A DNA stretch of 64,000 bases from Acidimicrobiia bacterium (lineage in GTDB: Bacteria; Acidobacteriota; Terriglobia; Bryobacterales; Bryobacteraceae), in assembly GCA_016871315.1 (NCBI GenBank), contig VFZE01000001.1, positions 1-64,000 on the forward strand, written 5' to 3'. Shown one piece after another: positions 39,630 to 49,093 of the stretch (positions are counted from its first letter, which is position 1; the number at the start of each line of letters is the position of its first letter). The position numbers and the translations under genes are program-made. The notes beneath the pieces were generated by a model. It ran no database searches, was not told where the DNA came from, and saw only the letters and a program-made list of their open reading frames with translations.

Positions 39630-40736
39630 ATGCCGCTCGTCCCTCCTTATATCGAGTCGCTGAAACCGTACGAGCCCGGCCGTGGGATCGACGAGATTCG
39701 ACGCTTGTACGGCGTCGAAAAAGTGTCCAAGCTGGCCTCCAACGAAAACCCGCTCGGGCCCTCGCCGCGCGCCATCGAAGCCATGCGCGCCTGCCGCGAG
39801 GATATCCACCGCTATCCCGATGGCGGCCTGAAACTGCGCCAACGCCTGGCGCCCGCCTTCGGACTGAAGGTGGAAAACGTCATTGCCGGCTCGGGCAGTG
39901 AAGGCATCATGTCGAACATCATCCGCGCGTTCCTGTGCGATGAGGATGAAGTGCTGACCACCGAGTGCGCCTTTATCGGCTTTCAAGTGCTGGCACGCTC
40001 GCGCGGCGTCGCCTACCGCACGGTGCCCTACCGCAGTTTCCACTACGATCTTGAGGCGCTGGCCGCGGCCATCACCAAAAAGACGAAGATCATCTACCTG
40101 GCCAATCCCAACAATCCGACAGGCACCATCTTCACGCGCGGCGAATTCGACGAGTTTTACCGCCACGTGCCCGAGCGCGTGCTGATCATTCTCGACGAGG
40201 CCTACTTTGAGTACGCCAAAGACAACCCGCGTTATCCGGATTCCATGCACTACCGCTACGACAACGTGATCACGCTGCGGACCTTCTCCAAGGTCTACGG
40301 GCTGGCCGGGGTGAGGATCGGCTACGGGTTCGCGCATGAGCGGCTGATCGGCAACCTGTTGAAAGTGAAGCTGCCATTTGAACCCGGCACGCACGCCCAA
40401 GCAGCGGCAATTGGCGCGTTGGAGGATACCGAGTTCTTGCACCGCTCGCTGGCGGTGAACGCCGCGGCATTGCGGCAATTAAAGGTCAGGCTTCAGGAGG
40501 CAGGCTACACAGTCGTGCCCTCGGAGGCCAATTTCGTCATGGTCCCGATGGAAACGGCCGATATCGCGGCCCGGTTCACCGAGGCGATGCTGCGGCAGGG
40601 CGTGATTGTGCGGCCGCTGGGCGCCTTCGGGCTGCCTCACTGCGTGAGGATTTCCACGGGGACCGAATCAGAAATGGAGCATTTTTTCACGGCGCTCGCC
40701 ACAATAAAGGAAGGAGCCGTTGTATGCCACAAGTAA
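39630..40736 (+). CDS. Histidinol-phosphate-type aminotransferase, probably acting on tyrosine
   Basis: 368 residues. Class I/II PLP enzyme of the HisC group: KLASNENPLGPSPRAIEAM, AGSGSEGIMSNIIRAF, ANPNNPTGTIF, the Asp-Glu-Ala-Tyr of ILDEAYFEYA, the PLP lysine in TFSKVYGLAGVRIGYG, and the C-terminal Arg of VRISTGTESE. By sequence alone it could be hisC. However, it overlaps hppD by 13 nt and starts an operon for tyrosine breakdown with no histidine genes around. It therefore most likely makes 4-hydroxyphenylpyruvate from tyrosine (inference). Confidence 0.9.
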   Translation: MPLVPPYIESLKPYEPGRGIDEIRRLYGVEKVSKLASNENPLGPSPRAIEAMRACREDIHRYPDGGLKLRQRLAPAFGLKVENVIAGSGSEGIMSNIIRAFLCDEDEVLTTECAFIGFQVLARSRGVAYRTVPYRSFHYDLEALAAAITKKTKIIYLANPNNPTGTIFTRGEFDEFYRHVPERVLIILDEAYFEYAKDNPRYPDSMHYRYDNVITLRTFSKVYGLAGVRIGYGFAHERLIGNLLKVKLPFEPGTHAQAAAIGALEDTEFLHRSLAVNAAALRQLKVRLQEAGYTVVPSEANFVMVPMETADIAARFTEAMLRQGVIVRPLGAFGLPHCVRISTGTESEMEHFFTALATIKEGAVVCHK

Positions 40737-41851
40737 TGGAACAAACCACGCAGGCAGCGCAGGATTTCCTGCCGCTGGAAGGCGTGGATCATTTGGAATT
40801 CTGGGTCGGCAACGCCCGCCAGGCGGCCTACTTTTACCGCGCCGCCTTCGGGTTCCGGCTTACCGCCTACGCCGGGCCGGAGACCGGCTCGCGCGACGCC
40901 GCCTCCTACGTGCTGGAGCAGAACAAGGTGCGCCTGGTGATGACCACGCCGCTGGACCCGACGCACATGATGGCCAGCCACATCCGCCTGCACGGTGATG
41001 GCGTGCGCGACGTCGCGCTGGCAGTGACCGACGCCGAAAAAGCCTGGCGGGAAACAACCAGCCGTGGAGCGCGCAGCGTGCGGGAGCCGCAGTGGCTGGA
41101 AGACGAACATGGCCGCTACTGCCAGGCTTCCATCGCCACCTACGGCGAAACAATTCATACCTTCGTCGACCGTACACGCTATCGCGGTGCATTCCGGCCC
41201 GGGTTCGCGACCGCCGAGTCGCCTGATTCGGTGGCCCGGCCGGTGGGTATCCGCGCCGTCGATCACGTGGTCGGCAACGTCGGCTGGGGACAGATGGACA
41301 CTTGGGTCCGCTTCTATGAGCGCGTCATGGGCTTCCGGATGTTCAAGCATTTTGACGACAAGGACATCTCCACCGAATTCTCCGCGTTGATGTCGAAAGT
41401 GGTCTCCGGCGGTAATGACCGCATCAAGTTCCCCATCAATGAGCCCGCCGAGGGCCGCCGTAAGTCGCAGATCGAGGAATACCTGGACTTCTATCGCGGC
41501 GCCGGCGTGCAGCACATCGCGCTGATCACCGGCGACATCATCGATACGGTGACCAGGCTTCGCAACCAGGGCGTCTCGTTCCTCCGCGTACCGGACACCT
41601 ACTATGCGTCGCTGACCGAACGTGTCGGCAAAATCAAGGAGCCCATCGACAAACTGGCCGAGCTGGGCATTCTGGTGGACCGCGACGAAGACGGTTACCT
41701 GCTGCAGGTCTTCACCAAGCCCGTCGAGGACCGGCCCACGCTGTTCTACGAAATCATCCAGCGCCACGGAAGCCAGAGCTTCGGCAAGGGCAACTTCAAG
41801 GCGCTGTTTGAAGCCATCGAGCGCGAGCAGGCACGGCGCGGAAACCTGTAG
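40724..41851 (+). CDS. hppD: 4-hydroxyphenylpyruvate dioxygenase
   Basis: 375 residues; converts 4-hydroxyphenylpyruvate to homogentisate with Fe(II) and O2. Two vicinal-oxygen-chelate modules: VDHLEFWVGNARQAAYFYRAAFGF and VDHVVGNVGWGQMDTWVRFYERVMGF. Iron ligands are the His of VDHVVGN, the His of VQHIALITGD and the Glu of FYEIIQRHG. The C-terminal helix FGKGNFKALFEAIEREQ is standard. AAGGAG at 40711-40716 is well placed. It overlaps the aminotransferase and is followed 3 nt later by the fumarylacetoacetase-type gene. Confidence 0.96.
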   Translation: MPQVMEQTTQAAQDFLPLEGVDHLEFWVGNARQAAYFYRAAFGFRLTAYAGPETGSRDAASYVLEQNKVRLVMTTPLDPTHMMASHIRLHGDGVRDVALAVTDAEKAWRETTSRGARSVREPQWLEDEHGRYCQASIATYGETIHTFVDRTRYRGAFRPGFATAESPDSVARPVGIRAVDHVVGNVGWGQMDTWVRFYERVMGFRMFKHFDDKDISTEFSALMSKVVSGGNDRIKFPINEPAEGRRKSQIEEYLDFYRGAGVQHIALITGDIIDTVTRLRNQGVSFLRVPDTYYASLTERVGKIKEPIDKLAELGILVDRDEDGYLLQVFTKPVEDRPTLFYEIIQRHGSQSFGKGNFKALFEAIEREQARRGNL

Positions 41852-41854
41852 CCG

Positions 41855-42823
41855 ATGAAGCTTTGCACGTTTGAGGTGCGGACGCACCTGGGGCGTCGCC
41901 GCAGGCTGGGCGCCGTGCTGGAAGACGGCATCCTCGATCTGAACTTCGCCACCGCGCTGCGCGTGGGCAGTGGGCCGTTGGCCGCCGCGCTGGTGCCCAG
42001 CACCATGCGCGCAATGCTTGAGCACGGCCAGATGGACGAGGCGCGCCAGACCATCGATTGGTGGACCTCGCGCCGGCCGGCGCACGGCGCAAACGATGAG
42101 ACGCTGTTCTACAAGACTGGGGAGGTTCGCCTCTGTGCACCTCTGCCCGATCCGGCCTCCGTGCGCGACTTCTACGCCTTTGAGCAGCATGTGAAGAAGG
42201 GCTTCGAAAAGCGCGGGGAGCCGATGCCGGAGGAGTGGTACCAGATGCCCGTCTATTACAAGTCCGGCCACCACAACATCGTCGGGCCTGATGAGGACGT
42301 GCTGTGGCCCAGCTTCACCGAGAAGTTCGACTATGAGCTGGAGTTGGCGGCCGTCGTCGGCCGCCGCGGCTCCAATCTCAAGGCGGAGGAAGCCGAAGCC
42401 TGGATTGCCGGCTACACCGTGATGAACGATTTCAGCGCGCGCGATATTCAGAAGCGCGAGATGCGCGTTCGGCTGGGTCCGGCCAAGGGCAAGGATTGGG
42501 CCACCGCGCTCGGCCCCTATCTTGTGACTCCCGATGAGATCGGCGGCGTCTATCAACTACGGATGACGGCGTGCGTCAACGGCGAGATGTGGTCGGAAGG
42601 TTCCAGTTCCACGCTGCACTGGAAATTCGGCCAGATGCTCGAGTTTCTCACCCGTGACGATACCATCGTGCCCGGCGACGTGCTCGGTTCGGGCACGGTG
42701 GGAACCGGCTGCGGGCTGGAGCTGGGCCGCTGGGTACAGCCCGGCGATTTGATGGAACTGGAGATTGAGAAAATCGGCGTCTTGCGTAATAGAGTCAGGA
42801 AGGGGCAGCCATGTATCCACTGA
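41855..42823 (+). CDS. Fumarylacetoacetate hydrolase family protein
   Basis: 322 residues. The FAH fold has the metal/active-site run YYKSGHHNIVGPDEDV, DYELELAAVVGRRG, IAGYTVMNDFSARDIQKREM, GPAKGKDWATALGPYLVT and the C-terminal DVLGSGTVGTGCGLELGRWVQPGD. The position between hppD and hmgA points to cleavage of fumarylacetoacetate (or maleylacetoacetate) to fumarate and acetoacetate. A separate maleylacetoacetate isomerase gene is not in the window. Its 3' end overlaps hmgA by 13 nt. Confidence 0.93.
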   Translation: MKLCTFEVRTHLGRRRRLGAVLEDGILDLNFATALRVGSGPLAAALVPSTMRAMLEHGQMDEARQTIDWWTSRRPAHGANDETLFYKTGEVRLCAPLPDPASVRDFYAFEQHVKKGFEKRGEPMPEEWYQMPVYYKSGHHNIVGPDEDVLWPSFTEKFDYELELAAVVGRRGSNLKAEEAEAWIAGYTVMNDFSARDIQKREMRVRLGPAKGKDWATALGPYLVTPDEIGGVYQLRMTACVNGEMWSEGSSSTLHWKFGQMLEFLTRDDTIVPGDVLGSGTVGTGCGLELGRWVQPGDLMELEIEKIGVLRNRVRKGQPCIH

Positions 42824-43911
42824 GCAAGGGAAAAACATCGAAACAGGCGCATGTCGGATTGCCGGACGGCACCTACGAGGAAGAACACGGCCGCAAAGGC
42901 TTCTACGGCAAATCGACCCATCTTTACCACGCCAATCCGCCCACGGGTTGGATAAGGTTTGAAGGCAAGCTCCGCCCGCATTGTTTCGACTTGAACAAGC
43001 TGGAACCCGCCGACCTGCGCGATGCCAAGGGCATGCCCACCGCGTTTCTCGGGAACGACGACGTCCGGCTCTATGTTTCCCGCCGCACAGAGCCAATGCC
43101 GTTCTACTACCGCAACGCCGACGGGGACGAGCTCCATTTCGTGCACCGCGGCGAAGGGACCATCGAAACCGACTTCGGACCGCTTGAATTCTCCAAGGGC
43201 GACTATATCGTCATCCCGCGCGCGGTGACTTATCGCGTAATTCCGCGCACCAAAGACAATTTCTTTCTCATCATTCAAGCGAAGGCGGAGTTTGAGCCGC
43301 CCGAGAAAGGCCTCCTCGGCCAGCATGCCTTATACGACCCGGCCGTTGTCGTGACACCGGAACCCAAGCCGAACCTCGACGACAAGCGCGAATGGGAAGT
43401 CTGGATCAAGGTGGAGGAGGAGATCTCCAAAGTCGTTTATCCATTCAACCCCATCGACGTCGTTGGCTGGAAAGGCGACCTCACCGTGTGGAAGCTGAAC
43501 ATCGCCGACATCCGCCCGGTGATGAGCCCGCGCGCGCACTTGCCGCCCAGCGCCCACACCACGTTCCAAACGCAAGGCGCTGTCGTCTGCACCTTCCTGC
43601 CACGCCCGCTGGAAGACGATCCGGAAGCGCTGCGCGTTCCTTTCTTTCACCGCAACACGGACTATGACGAGTTCCTCTTCTACCATGACGGCGATTTCTT
43701 CTCGCGCGACAACATCACCGCCGGCATGGCCACGCTGCATCCCCGCGGCATCCATCACGGCCCGCACCCGAAAGCGCTCGCCAATCAGCACAAAAAGACG
43801 CACACCGACGAAAGCGCGGTGATGCTCGACGGGCTGAATCCCATCCATGTTTTGCCAGCCGGTGAGCAAGTGGAATGGAAAGATTACTGGAAGAGCTGGA
43901 TGGGTGGGTAA
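42811..43911 (+). CDS. hmgA: Homogentisate 1,2-dioxygenase
   Basis: 366 residues; opens the homogentisate ring to maleylacetoacetate with Fe(II). Cupin-like: MPFYYRNADGDELHFVHRGEGTIETDFG in the N-terminal half. In the C-terminal half, FFHRNTDYDEFLFYHDGDFFSR and the metal-binding MATLHPRGIHHGPHPKAL are the family signature. Shorter than the 430-residue human-type enzyme, as in several bacterial versions. Last gene of the four-gene operon. Confidence 0.95.
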   Translation: MYPLSKGKTSKQAHVGLPDGTYEEEHGRKGFYGKSTHLYHANPPTGWIRFEGKLRPHCFDLNKLEPADLRDAKGMPTAFLGNDDVRLYVSRRTEPMPFYYRNADGDELHFVHRGEGTIETDFGPLEFSKGDYIVIPRAVTYRVIPRTKDNFFLIIQAKAEFEPPEKGLLGQHALYDPAVVVTPEPKPNLDDKREWEVWIKVEEEISKVVYPFNPIDVVGWKGDLTVWKLNIADIRPVMSPRAHLPPSAHTTFQTQGAVVCTFLPRPLEDDPEALRVPFFHRNTDYDEFLFYHDGDFFSRDNITAGMATLHPRGIHHGPHPKALANQHKKTHTDESAVMLDGLNPIHVLPAGEQVEWKDYWKSWMGG

Positions 43912-43939
43912 CCTCCATATTAATTTTCCGTATTAAGCC

Positions 43940-43968
43940 TTCAATTCCAGAATAAATCCTGGTATACT
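43940..43968 (+). promoter_or_regulatory. Promoter of the tyrosinase gene
   Basis: TTCAAT at 43940-43945, a 17-bp spacer, and TATACT at 43963-43968 with an extended TGG directly before it. It lies in the 91-bp AT-rich gap after hmgA. GGAGG at 43990-43994 serves the ATG at 44003. Confidence 0.6.
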
Positions 43969-44002
43969 TCCGGCACTCAGACTGGGATTGGAGGACATAC
44001 CC

Positions 44003-45349
44003 ATGACATTGACCCGCCGCGGGTTTCTTGCCGGAGCTGCGTCCGGCCTCGTACCCGCTTATTGCCAGACATGCGCTCCGCCGGCCGGTGGAACGCCGCT
44101 CCCTTTCAGCATCCCCGCCGGACAAACCAACGTTCAGCGCAAAGCCATCTCCGCTCTCACCGCCACCGAGGTGAACCGGCTGAGGCTTGCTTACCGGGCG
44201 CTTCGCAACCTCACCAACTCCAACGCCAACGATCCGCGCGGCTGGATGCAGCAGGCTAATGTGCACTGTTTCCAGTGCGGCGGGAATCCCGCCGGCTCCG
44301 ACATTCACCAGAGCTGGTTTTTCCTGCCCTGGCACCGCGCCTATCTGTACTATCACGAACGCATCCTCGGCCGGCTCATCAACGACATGAGCTTCCGGCT
44401 CCCCTTCTGGGATTGGGATCTTCCGGCCAGCCGCAACCTGCCGCCCATCTACCGGCCGCAAACAGTCAGCAGCCAGCCCAACTCACTGTTCGACAACCTG
44501 CGTGACACCAACGGTGGCCAGGCGATGCCAGCTTCGATCTTCCCCGCCAACAGCAACCCGATGAATTCCCCGAACTTTCCCACCTTCGGTGGATCGGCCA
44601 GTTCCGGCGGTTCGCTGGAGAACACCATACACGGCTTGGTGCATGTCTGGACGGCGCACCGGCCCATGACACAGGCCCGCGCCGACATGGGACGCCTGAA
44701 CACCGCCGCCCGCGACCCGATCTTTTTCAAACACCACTGCAATATCGACCGGCTCTGGGCGGAATGGCTTCGCCGGAACCCGGTAGCGCGCCAAAACCCG
44801 ACAGCGCTGGCCTGGCTGGACCGTGCCTTCACTTTCTTTGATGAGAACAGCCGCCTGCGCAGCATCCGCGTGCGGGACGTTCTCAACACCGCCACCAACC
44901 TTGGCTACAACTACGCTCCGGGCGCGGCGCTCACCTCCTCGGCGGCACCCAAACGGTTCGATCTCACCGCCAGTCAGCAGCAGGTCGTCAAACTCACCGC
45001 GGAGTTGAAGAAGCGTCTGCTCACACCCTCCGATCTCAACGTCACCCGGTCGCTGGTGGTGGAAGACGCCAAGGTGCCCACGGCCACGGGACTCTATAAT
45101 GTCTTCGCCGGCGCACCGCCTGCGGCCGGAACCGAAGCCAGCGAGGCCCCCAACTATCTCGGCTACATCGCCGTCATCGTCGGCGAACATGCCCATGCCG
45201 CCAGGCCCGCCTCGCTGATTCTCGATCCCAAGAAGGCCTTCGCCGATATGGCCTCCACCTCCGAAGGCGCGTTTCTCACTTACGCGCCAGCGGGCGCCGC
45301 ACAGGGAACCCGATTGAGCTTCTCCAGCGTCTATATTATTGAGCAGTGA
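44003..45349 (+). CDS. Tat-exported tyrosinase / polyphenol oxidase
   Basis: 448 residues. The N-terminus MTLTRRGFLAGAASG is a Tat signal, fitting a copper enzyme exported folded. CuA ligands: His88, His102 and His111 (NVHCFQC; DIHQSWFFLPWHRAYLYYHE). CuB: IHGLVHVW and FKHHCNIDRLWAEW. A C-terminal domain with LYNVFAGAPPA and YLGYIAVIVGEHAH resembles the plant-type polyphenol oxidase KFDV domain. It oxidises monophenols or catechols to quinones. It sits right after the homogentisate operon but has its own promoter. Its stop overlaps the next gene as GTGA. Confidence 0.93.
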   Translation: MTLTRRGFLAGAASGLVPAYCQTCAPPAGGTPLPFSIPAGQTNVQRKAISALTATEVNRLRLAYRALRNLTNSNANDPRGWMQQANVHCFQCGGNPAGSDIHQSWFFLPWHRAYLYYHERILGRLINDMSFRLPFWDWDLPASRNLPPIYRPQTVSSQPNSLFDNLRDTNGGQAMPASIFPANSNPMNSPNFPTFGGSASSGGSLENTIHGLVHVWTAHRPMTQARADMGRLNTAARDPIFFKHHCNIDRLWAEWLRRNPVARQNPTALAWLDRAFTFFDENSRLRSIRVRDVLNTATNLGYNYAPGAALTSSAAPKRFDLTASQQQVVKLTAELKKRLLTPSDLNVTRSLVVEDAKVPTATGLYNVFAGAPPAAGTEASEAPNYLGYIAVIVGEHAHAARPASLILDPKKAFADMASTSEGAFLTYAPAGAAQGTRLSFSSVYIIEQ

Positions 45350-45819
45350 TCCGTGGTTCCACACTCTTGTTCGTGGCGGCCTGCGCCATGCTGGCCTGCC
45401 AGGAGCCTCCCGTGACGCGGGAGACCCAGCCGGTTACCGTCACCGTGGCGGCGCCCAAACTGACGCTGCCCACGGACCGGCTCTCTCTCCGCGTCAGCCT
45501 GGAGGTTCCCCGCGAAAAGGGCGGTATCTTCCGCATCTTTGCCGAGCATCCCAAGGCCGGCCGCAACTCCAGCGTGGAAGATGAACGCTTCATCGGCTAT
45601 GTCACCGCGATGGCCGGGCCGGCGCCCAAAGACCCGAAAAAGGCCGAAGCCCTGAACCAGGTGAGCGTCGAACTACCCATCCCGGCGTCGTTTGAAAACT
45701 GGGGCAGGGGTAAATCCACCATCCGCTTCACCGTCATCGGCATGGGCGAGGCGGAAGTGAAGGTAAAGAAACTGGGGCTTGCCCTCATCACGGACGACCG
45801 CGGTGTCCCACTTCGTTAA
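45346..45819 (+). CDS. Lipoprotein translationally coupled to tyrosinase
   Basis: 157 residues. Signal peptide with lipobox MLAC (Cys18), so a predicted outer- or inner-membrane lipoprotein. The mature part is a beta-rich domain: LPTDRLSLRVSLEVPREKGG, then VSVELPIPASFENWGRGKSTIRFTVIGMGE. This resembles the second half of the plant polyphenol oxidase C-terminal domain, suggesting a split or caddie-like partner of the enzyme (inference). The GTG start overlaps the tyrosinase stop by four bases. Its 3' end overlaps the subtilase start. Confidence 0.7.
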   Translation: MIRGSTLLFVAACAMLACQEPPVTRETQPVTVTVAAPKLTLPTDRLSLRVSLEVPREKGGIFRIFAEHPKAGRNSSVEDERFIGYVTAMAGPAPKDPKKAEALNQVSVELPIPASFENWGRGKSTIRFTVIGMGEAEVKVKKLGLALITDDRGVPLR

Positions 45820-47035
45820 ACAGCAGCTGAAAGCCTTCGGGGTGGCGCAAGCCATCGTCGTCTTGAAGAAGGCGGCCGGGGCCGAACGCCACCCGGCCCT
45901 CGATCTGCGCAAGCATTTCCAGTGGAGCGATCTTGATCGCCATCTTGGCCGCGTCCTCTCTGTTGCCTCGGCGGTGGCGGGCGCGGCCGCGGCGCCTGCT
46001 GCCTCTCCGATGCTCCACTTCCGGAATCTCGGCATCGCCTACGGCACCCTCGATCAACAAGGCTGGGACAATCTGCGGAAGGAAGATGCCGTCGCCAAGG
46101 TGCACGGCGCGCCCACCGTTCGCCCCATCCGCGTTCTGGAATCGAAACCCGCCGCCGCGCCGCCCAAGCTCGGCTGGAACCTGCGCCAGATCGGTGTTAC
46201 CAAGCTTTGGAGAAAAGGTTTCACCGGCAAGGGGGTCCGCGTGGCTCACCTCGATACCGGCGTCGACGGCAAGCACCCGGCGCTGGCGGGCGTCGTGGAG
46301 GAGTTCGTCGAGTTCGACGCTACTGGTCAGCGCGTGCCGCACTCCACAGCGTTCGACACCTCCAATCACGGGACACTCACCGCCGGAATCATCGCCGGCC
46401 GCCGCAATAACGACCGCGCCGTCGGTGTCGCTCCCGGGTGCAGCCTTCTGAGCGGCATCATCATTGAAGGCGGCGACCCCACGGCTCGCCTGCTGGCCGG
46501 CCTTGACTGGGCCGTGGAGAAAAAGGTCCGCATCGTCAACGCCAGCCTCGGCTTCCCCGATTACTCGGAGGAGTTCCTACCCGTCATCAAGATTCTGCGC
46601 TCCAACGGCATCCTTCCGGTCTTCGCCGTGGGCAATGAAGGGCCCGGTACCAGCCGCTCCCCGGGCAACTATGCGGAAGCCGTTTCCGTCGGCGCCATCG
46701 ACCGCAAGGGCGTCGTCGCCGCCGATTCCGGCAGCCAGCGTTTCAACCGCACCGCCGATCCCATTGTTCCCGACCTGGTGACGCCCGGCGTCGACATCGT
46801 CTCCACCGACGCCGGCGGAGGCTACCGCAAAGCCAACGGCAGTTCCATGGCCGCGCCGCACGTGGCGGGCCTCGCCGCGCTGCTGTGGGAAGCCACGCCG
46901 GACTCAACCGTCGATCAGATCGAGCAAGCCATCTTCCAATCCTGCACGCGGCCCCAATCGGCCCCCGAGGATCGTGCAAACCGTGGCATCCCGGACGCCG
47001 TCAAAGCGCTAGCTTTGCTGACTAAACCGAAGTAG
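45779..47035 (+). CDS. Subtilisin-like serine peptidase (S8), no signal peptide
   Basis: 418 residues from the ATG at 45779; a GTG at 45803 would reduce the overlap with the lipoprotein gene. The catalytic Asp is in VAHLDTGVDGKHP, the His in SNHGTLTAGI (N-H-G-T instead of G-H-G-T), the oxyanion Asn in AVGNEG, and the Ser in NGSSMAAPHVAGLAALL. There is no secretion signal, unlike the other two subtilases of the window. The first 130 residues are a helical N-terminal domain. Overlap with the tyrosinase/lipoprotein genes suggests one operon and perhaps a role in maturing the tyrosinase (speculative). Confidence 0.88.
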   Translation: MPSSRTTAVSHFVKQQLKAFGVAQAIVVLKKAAGAERHPALDLRKHFQWSDLDRHLGRVLSVASAVAGAAAAPAASPMLHFRNLGIAYGTLDQQGWDNLRKEDAVAKVHGAPTVRPIRVLESKPAAAPPKLGWNLRQIGVTKLWRKGFTGKGVRVAHLDTGVDGKHPALAGVVEEFVEFDATGQRVPHSTAFDTSNHGTLTAGIIAGRRNNDRAVGVAPGCSLLSGIIIEGGDPTARLLAGLDWAVEKKVRIVNASLGFPDYSEEFLPVIKILRSNGILPVFAVGNEGPGTSRSPGNYAEAVSVGAIDRKGVVAADSGSQRFNRTADPIVPDLVTPGVDIVSTDAGGGYRKANGSSMAAPHVAGLAALLWEATPDSTVDQIEQAIFQSCTRPQSAPEDRANRGIPDAVKALALLTKPK

Positions 47036-47599: not shown

Positions 47600-49093
47600 A
47601 TGAAATCACGTCTTATTCGGAGGGCGTCGAGTGCCGCCCTGATGCTGTCTTGCCTTAGCCTCGTGCCTGCTGCACTGGCACAGCCCGGTCCCGTGGAATG
47701 GGTGCCGGTGATCATCGGGTTCAACCGCTTGCCCGGAGCGAGTGAGCAGGCCCTTGTGCGGTCGCTCGGCGGCGTGGTCAGACACACCTATCGTTTCACT
47801 CCCGCGATTGCGGCAAGAGTGCCGAGGCAACTGATCCAGGTGCTCGACAATCACCCGCTGATTTCGGTTGTCGAACCGGACGTGACGATTCATGCCATTG
47901 ATGAGTACACCTCGGCTTGGGGCGTGCAGAAGATCAATGCCAAGCTGGTGCACGATGCCGGCAATCGCGGCCAGGGTCTGAAGGTTTGCGTGATTGACAC
48001 CGGCATCGCGAAGAACCATCCGGAGCTGTCGCCCAACTATGAGCCCAATGGAAGTTGGGACTACGTGAACAATGACCCCGATCCGGAAGACGACAACGGC
48101 CATGGCACGCACGTGGCGGGCAGCATCGCCGCGGCGCTGAATGGCGCCGGGGTTGTGGGCGCGGCGCATCAGGCGCGCATCCTGGCCTTCAAGATCCTCA
48201 ACGCGCAAGGATCCGGGCAGATGAGTGACGCCATCGCCGCCGTCGACCGTTGCCGGCTGTATGGCGGTAAGATCACCAACAACAGCTACGGCTCCAGCGG
48301 CGATCCTGGCTCCTCCGTGAAGGCCGCTTTTGACTCCACTTACAACGCAGGCATGCTCCACGTGGCCGCCTCCGGCAACGCCACCTCCATCTTCACGTGC
48401 AACTCGGTTTCCTACCCCGCGCGCTACGACTCGGTGATGGCGGTGGGCGCGACCGACTCCGGCGATGCCATTGCCAGCTTCTCGTGCCGTGGGCCTGAAG
48501 TAGAGGTTTCCGCGCCGGGGGTCAGCATCACTTCCACATACCTCAATAACGGATACGCCAGCGGAAGCGGTACCTCGATGGCGTCGCCTCATGTGGCTGG
48601 AACCGCCGCTCTCGTGTTCGGATGTGGCTTAGCCGACCAGAACGCCGACGGTGTCATCAACAACATCGACGTGCGCCTGCGCCTTCAGAACACGGCTCTT
48701 GATCTCGGGTCAGCGGGGCGCGACAACTTGTTCGGCTTCGGCCGCATCCGCGCCGACGTTGCGGCCACCAACTGCAACATCGCACCGCCGCCACCGCCGT
48801 TGCCCACCATTCCCGGCAACTTCCGTGTCACTTCCACCAATCGTACCTATATCAGCCTTGCCTGGAACGATGCGCAGAACGAAACCTCCTACCAGTTGGA
48901 GCGTTGCACAGGCACCAGCTCACAATGCGCCTCCAGCGGAGCCTTTTCGCTCGTCGCTACTCTGAGCGCCAACACGACCAGCTATACGAATACGGGTCTC
49001 GCGCGGCGCACTACCTACACCTACCGGCTCCGGGGCGTCAATAGCGCCGGACCGGGAGGCTGGTCCTCTCTCGCCTCCGGCACAACCAGGTAG
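47600..49093 (+). CDS. Secreted subtilisin-like serine peptidase with fibronectin type III domain
   Basis: 497 residues. A signal peptide (1-27, ending ALA-QPG) is followed by an I9-like propeptide (VIIGFNRLPGASEQALVRSLGG...VSVVEPD-like) and the S8 domain: Asp in VCVIDTGIAKNHPEL, His in NGHGTHVAGSIAAAL, oxyanion Asn in AASGNAT, Ser in SGTSMASPHVAGTAALVFG. A Pro-rich linker (APPPPPLPTIPGN) leads to one FnIII domain (RVTSTNRTYISLAWNDAQNETSYQLER). It is a complete proteinase-K-like secreted enzyme, probably for nutrient protein breakdown. Confidence 0.95.
   Translation: MKSRLIRRASSAALMLSCLSLVPAALAQPGPVEWVPVIIGFNRLPGASEQALVRSLGGVVRHTYRFTPAIAARVPRQLIQVLDNHPLISVVEPDVTIHAIDEYTSAWGVQKINAKLVHDAGNRGQGLKVCVIDTGIAKNHPELSPNYEPNGSWDYVNNDPDPEDDNGHGTHVAGSIAAALNGAGVVGAAHQARILAFKILNAQGSGQMSDAIAAVDRCRLYGGKITNNSYGSSGDPGSSVKAAFDSTYNAGMLHVAASGNATSIFTCNSVSYPARYDSVMAVGATDSGDAIASFSCRGPEVEVSAPGVSITSTYLNNGYASGSGTSMASPHVAGTAALVFGCGLADQNADGVINNIDVRLRLQNTALDLGSAGRDNLFGFGRIRADVAATNCNIAPPPPPLPTIPGNFRVTSTNRTYISLAWNDAQNETSYQLERCTGTSSQCASSGAFSLVATLSANTTSYTNTGLARRTTYTYRLRGVNSAGPGGWSSLASGTTR

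Follow-up and report, generated by a model that had tools for sequence, protein, structure and literature searches.

How is a bacterial tyrosinase loaded, kept latent and switched on, and do two genes that follow it in overlapping order have a part in this? The question is raised by a locus in a 64,000-nucleotide stretch of DNA from a soil acidobacterium of the Bryobacterales (the whole of which we call the window), where a tyrosinase gene (TYR) runs into the gene for a small protein (the solo lid) and this in turn into a subtilase gene (S8a). It has been proposed that tyrosinases in soils and wetlands control phenolics and the storage of carbon. One review distinguishes three tyrosinase architectures and sees their activation in vivo as lacking experimental data (PMC9454253); according to another, the physiological activation of non-insect polyphenol oxidases (PPOs) is still elusive (PMC11608171). 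To our minds, and with a probability of about one half, the trio comprises a latent PPO, a trans-acting lid with a caddie-like role and a candidate maturation protease.

Layout of the locus

39630..43911, + strand: tyrosine catabolic operon (aminotransferase, HPPD, FAH-family hydrolase, divergent HmgA), a neighbour outside the system
43912..44002, + strand: intergenic gap of 91 bases between the catabolic operon and TYR, with a GGAGG ribosome-binding site
44003..45349, + strand: TYR, ATG at 44003, stop at 45347-45349
44003..44071, + strand: Tat signal peptide region of TYR, ~residues 1-23, by motif and pattern scan
44951..45346, + strand: covalent lid of TYR, ~residues 317-448, by HMM and by hhalign against the solo-lid family
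45346..45819, + strand: solo lid, GTG start at 45346, stop at 45817-45819
45803..47035, + strand: S8a, GTG at 45803 as the most likely start

The TYR stop and the solo lid start share the letters GTGA, and the S8a start overlaps the 3' end of the solo lid gene by 17 bases, so both junctions are as a sequence-only reading of this DNA had described them. Going by these overlaps, we infer that all three genes would lie on one transcript. A consensus scan of the 91-base gap upstream of TYR found no promoter; TGGTATACT, at 43960-43968 in this gap, is an extended -10-like sequence, picked out by eye only. A second subtilase gene (47600-49093, + strand), whose product appears Sec-exported and carries an fn3 domain, lies 565 bases after S8a and is absent from the surroundings of the trio in relatives.

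A neighbouring operon predicted to consume homogentisate

The operon upstream of TYR had been read as a four-gene route from tyrosine to homogentisate and, next to a tyrosinase, as one of a pair of routes leading to quinones or melanin precursors. Neither view holds. The aminotransferase is HisC-like and HPPD matches TIGR01263 above cut-off (448 bits), and the last gene (42811-43911, + strand), which scores 69 bits against a cut-off of 511 with TIGR01015 and passes the Pfam HgmA_N cut-off, encodes, judged by these profiles, a divergent homogentisate dioxygenase. Since it is joined by a FAH-family hydrolase, homogentisate would be consumed here rather than left as an end product. Pyomelanin-type loci have HPPD without HmgA, whereas here an HmgA-like gene sits in the same operon. 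Moreover, there are no homogentisate genes near the trio in the relatives described below, so the adjacency is local. Tyrosinase and homogentisate genes acting together in melanin formation would fit their adjacency on the same strand but neither the consumption of homogentisate nor the separation in relatives, and we find this scarcely credible.

TYR, a latent-type polyphenol oxidase

TYR is a two-domain type-3 copper PPO with a Tat signal and its own C-terminal lid. It matches PF00264 (Tyrosinase, E 2.2e-33) and PF12142 (PPO1_DWL, E 6.5e-13); PF12143 gave no match to TYR itself. The core (~35-306) is followed by a flexible linker (~305-316) and the covalent lid (~317-448), which the HMM places at residues 317-439 of the 453-aa open reading frame, and the AF2 model has a pLDDT of 88.6 that drops below 50 at linker residues 309-312. 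Consistent with the earlier claim of a Tat-exported type-3 copper tyrosinase, export is predicted from the motif TLTRRGF (in TLTRRGFLAG), whose RRxF is invariant in the six nearest sequences, and H88, C92, H102, H111, H210, H214 and H244 (six copper-binding histidines and a Cys) are invariant in a 48-sequence alignment. The gatekeeper-equivalent of the covalent lid, in the column of Phe397 of HcTyr1 (see below), is Ile392. HisB1 is followed by Gly211, so monophenolase activity, judged from known activity-controller positions, is not assured.

The small partner is a second lid

Profiles and predicted fold identify the small protein as a free-standing PPO lid domain with an export-like start; it is a second lid because TYR already has its own. 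By itself it has no Pfam match. An HMM from only the five small proteins, however, picks up other tyrosinases by their C-terminal domains (best 9e-18) and matches the window's own TYR at 1e-6, and profile-profile comparison (hhalign) aligns the solo lid with the C-terminus of TYR (P 96.4, E 1.3e-9). The solo-lid family profile matches the isolated apple PPO lid (6elv, E 2.8e-12), HcTyr1 (8b74, 4e-12) and other PPO lids, too. PF12143 is matched by 9/30 family members and PF25271 by 10/30, under the names PPO1_KFDV and DUF7868 that we take to denote the PPO lid domain; no member of the alignment matches PF06236 (MelC1) at E 0.1. The AF2 model of the solo lid (pLDDT 84.6) aligns with PPO lids over ~114-127 residues, with Z-scores of 11.5 for tomato PPO, 11.2 for apple PPO and 10.3 for the isolated apple lid; the first non-PPO structure follows at Z 7.8, families missing from these match lists not being treated as excluded. 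A resemblance to part of the plant PPO C-terminal domain, as first proposed, is thereby strengthened to what profile and predicted fold indicate is the same domain.

The same protein had been called a lipoprotein, and here the export-like start stands, being conserved in orthologues that begin with ordinary signal-like sequences, while lipidation is doubtful, for the lipobox candidates (VAAC13 or MLAC18) are weak and absent from these orthologues. Lipobox-like starts do occur in some family members (e.g. L153, L128), and the jelly-roll fold matches CBM35 modules (Z ~6.7), in line with a reported resemblance of lid domains to carbohydrate-binding proteins (PMC10526336). Both would suit a carbohydrate- or surface-binding anchor that places the enzyme, rather than a plug or chaperone of its copper site. 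Against such an anchor, PPO lids reach Z 11.5 and carbohydrate-binding modules 7.8 or less, most solo lids have a bulky hydrophobic gatekeeper-equivalent (F, Y, V, L or M; Met89 in the window) and leaderless tyrosinases have leaderless lids. We thus regard an anchor as unlikely and keep to a lid that works at the copper site.

The trio is conserved in Bryobacterales

A search for TYR relatives in 250 genomes of the order returned tyrosinases more than 50% identical to TYR from three (G194, G093, G245), and in each the small gene lies directly downstream of the tyrosinase with S8a next. The three are of different genera, the trio is kept at ~50% identity, and its genes overlap or are spaced by gaps of 3-60 bases; the contigs of G093 and G245 end inside S8a, with the remainder of the latter on contig C161. 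Scanning the genome contigs with single proteins gave no match and the alignment-based scan did. In a congener (G173, 86% complete) none of the three trio queries found a match, and in G111 the small gene stands at the contig start with no S8 after it. The sequence-only reading had itself named a search for conserved tyrosinase-partner-S8 order in acidobacteria as its test; with that order kept in three other Bryobacterales genera, the gene arrangement marks TYR, lid and S8a as a real conserved unit and not a product of chance. We also weighed a programmed fusion of the lid with S8a and rejected it, because in relatives the two genes are separate and a short distance apart.

Separate lids accompany tyrosinases in several phyla

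Tyrosinase similarity was the sole criterion for choosing 95 loci; in 33 of them a separate lid gene lies near the tyrosinase (same strand, within 1.5 kb), so that the small protein is a recurrent partner and its link to tyrosinases strong and general. By record title, these loci fall into Acidobacteriota, Nitrospirota, Planctomycetes, Bacteroidota, Eremiobacterota/WPS-2 and alpha-, beta-, gamma- and deltaproteobacteria, with Actinobacteria having a split enzyme. On the core-domain tree, starred branches force at least nine changes of state in the presence of a separate lid. The lid tree, though of low resolution, intermixes covalent and solo lids and forces at least four changes between them, which makes more than one origin of solo lids probable.

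Export appears matched between partners. In a scan by simple hydrophobicity and motifs rather than by a trained predictor, nearly all lids paired with Tat tyrosinases have a signal-like hydrophobic start, and leaderless tyrosinases of Roseivirga, Glaciecola and loci L050 and L078 pair with leaderless lids; L118 is the one clear exception, and in Hahella (L105) the tyrosinase is leaderless and the lid start ambiguous. The gatekeeper type of covalent and solo lid agrees in 28/29 pairs, which we rejected as a sign of co-evolution since it amounts to one independent contrast.

Some loci depart from the common layout. Tyrosinases without a covalent lid in L050 (8367-9895) and L078 (582-2924) have the lid as a separate adjacent gene and look like split enzymes. 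In a Nitrospira locus (L064, 7764-9741) the tyrosinase's own lid lies in another frame, probably through a frameshift, and is followed by the usual solo lid, so that its count as a separate lid is in part due to the probable frameshift.

Known helpers and a possible role for the solo lid

A small beta-rich exported partner next to a tyrosinase recalls the Streptomyces caddie MelC1 (PF06236) and its tyrosinase MelC2, and by this analogy the solo lid could plausibly plug or load the copper site. There are differences: MelC2-type enzymes have neither a lid of their own nor the Tat signal found in TYR, and the solo lid is homologous to the TYR lid, lies downstream of TYR, gives no PF06236 match and has Met89 in the gatekeeper column where the caddie has Tyr. 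Two-domain latent PPOs (plant enzymes with PF12143, MdPPO1, Verrucomicrobium vsTyr, Ralstonia 7XIO) share the domain order, DWL region and jelly-roll lid of TYR; what the trio adds is another lid, encoded on its own, and a gene for a subtilase. Marinomonas PpoB1/PpoB2 (PF09948) likewise pairs a tyrosinase with a copper-transfer helper in one operon, but PpoB2 sits in the membrane, belongs to another family and is not part of the window's unit. It is encoded elsewhere in the window's genome (G000:C46, 16753-17322), away from its only tyrosinase, and did not turn up in the remaining three genomes with the trio; MelC1 was not found in any of the four by a search without a positive control. In these organisms, the chief dedicated helper may thus be the solo lid, as we infer from MelC1 not being found and PpoB2 being present in one of the four.

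We propose that TYR is a latent PPO exported in folded form via Tat with its covalent lid over the copper site. The solo lid, exported separately, would act on it in trans in a caddie-like role, holding or loading the copper site or shielding it after loss of the covalent lid. That the solo lid acts on TYR in some such way, be it by binding, copper loading or inhibition, seems probable. A covalent plus a separate lid is a fourth tyrosinase architecture, present here in several phyla, and the recurrent separate lid offers a concrete handle on the loading and activation of tyrosinases in bacteria. Our search of the literature open without subscription brought up no account of a tyrosinase with a separate lid or an S8 gene.

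An immediate test case is HcTyr1 from Hahella sp. CCB-MM4 (PDB 8B74), a lidded tyrosinase with separate lid and PpoB2 genes right beside it. The Hahella locus (L105, 7944-10547) encodes a tyrosinase identical to 8B74, then PpoB2 and then the lid; it differs from the TYR locus in its leaderless enzyme, the intervening PpoB2 and the lack of S8. HcTyr1 was expressed and crystallised alone, has Phe397 protruding into the active site, holds water instead of copper in the crystal and cleaves itself (PMC11609597); a word search of that paper found no discussion of neighbouring genes.

S8a as a candidate maturation protease

S8a matches PF00082 (Peptidase_S8, E 1e-44) with an intact triad (D151, H189, S348; motifs DTG, HGT, SSMAAPH), and its orthologues are 52-57% identical over the catalytic domain. 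As first described, it is a subtilase without a signal peptide, neither possible start giving one. Its N-terminal ~120 residues show, by eye only, a propeptide-like strand-helix pattern; Pfam gave no I9-type propeptide match at E 1. S8a thus shares the catalytic domain and triad of secreted and intracellular S8 subtilases yet lacks a signal peptide despite its propeptide-like N-terminus, and is linked to a tyrosinase.

As the candidate maturation protease, S8a would cut the linker at ~305-316 or remove a lid, meeting TYR either before Tat export or after its release. With no export signal its role is uncertain, and since some lidded tyrosinases self-cleave (HcTyr1 and MdPPO1; PMC11609597) a protease may be unnecessary. 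Of the helper and the protease that the sequence-only reading saw in one transcription unit, domain identity and recurrence uphold the lid partner, while activation of TYR by S8a is a proposal: cutting of TYR or a lid by S8a we put forward tentatively, as the trio at least names a candidate activating protease. A complete three-part latency device, in which a covalent lid is joined by a trans lid that protects or loads copper and by a dedicated subtilase that times activation, its lid part being an overlooked general accessory, is more speculative still and would have to be called doubtful.

The tyrosinase-solo lid pair may instead be the functional unit, with S8a a linked passenger or engaged in general cytoplasmic protein turnover. 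Such a role would suit its missing signal peptide, the roughly one dozen S8 genes of the window's genome, the S8a relatives that lie apart from tyrosinases in G221 and G023, and the lack of S8 in most pairs. It is harder to reconcile with the same gene order in four genera at ~50% identity despite changed flanking genes, with genes that overlap or nearly so, and with the S8 genes that occupy this position in Nitrobacter and Bradyrhizobium. A passenger S8a is possible, at odds clearly short of even. S8a relatives in genomes of the same order (L159, 7526-8956; L160, 51-1523) are also without clear signal peptides and away from tyrosinases.

S8a also matches PatA and QhpE models weakly, both far below curated cut-offs, and adjoins an oxidase gene, which could suggest that TYR modifies the small protein and S8a releases the product, as in subtilase peptide maturation. 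We rejected the small protein as a substrate and hold this very improbable, given those scores, a folded lid domain and an only tyrosine (Tyr85) that is not conserved in the family.

Returning to S8a as candidate protease, we find that among 79 contig loci an S8 gene stands immediately behind the tyrosinase block in Nitrobacter vulgaris (L100), Bradyrhizobium niftali (L126) and the Bryobacterales clade; the layout recurs in L170, from a second genome of the Bradyrhizobium group. In Nitrobacter and Bradyrhizobium, unrelated S8 genes lie 28-40 bases after lid-tyrosinase pairs, and the Bradyrhizobium trio (L126) is called probable because its upstream 173-aa gene matches the lid at a borderline level only (E 9e-6, single-sequence test). 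Although the two tyrosinases are sisters on the tree, their S8 proteins differ in build, with ~25% identity and one with, the other without, a signal peptide. S8 genes total 2 in 3.9 Mb in Nitrobacter vulgaris and 4 in 9.8 Mb in Bradyrhizobium. At such densities, finding a few S8 genes adjacent and co-directional among ~80 loci exceeds a rough expectation of ~0.1, which is indicative only since S8 density was measured in few genomes. Other Bradyrhizobium tyrosinases with separate lids have no such S8 arrangement, and we do not take S8 linkage to be a general rule, since most tyrosinase-lid pairs are without S8. In Limimaricola (L124, 882-7353), a tyrosinase gene is followed by S8, trypsin-like and carboxypeptidase-like genes in a protease cluster.
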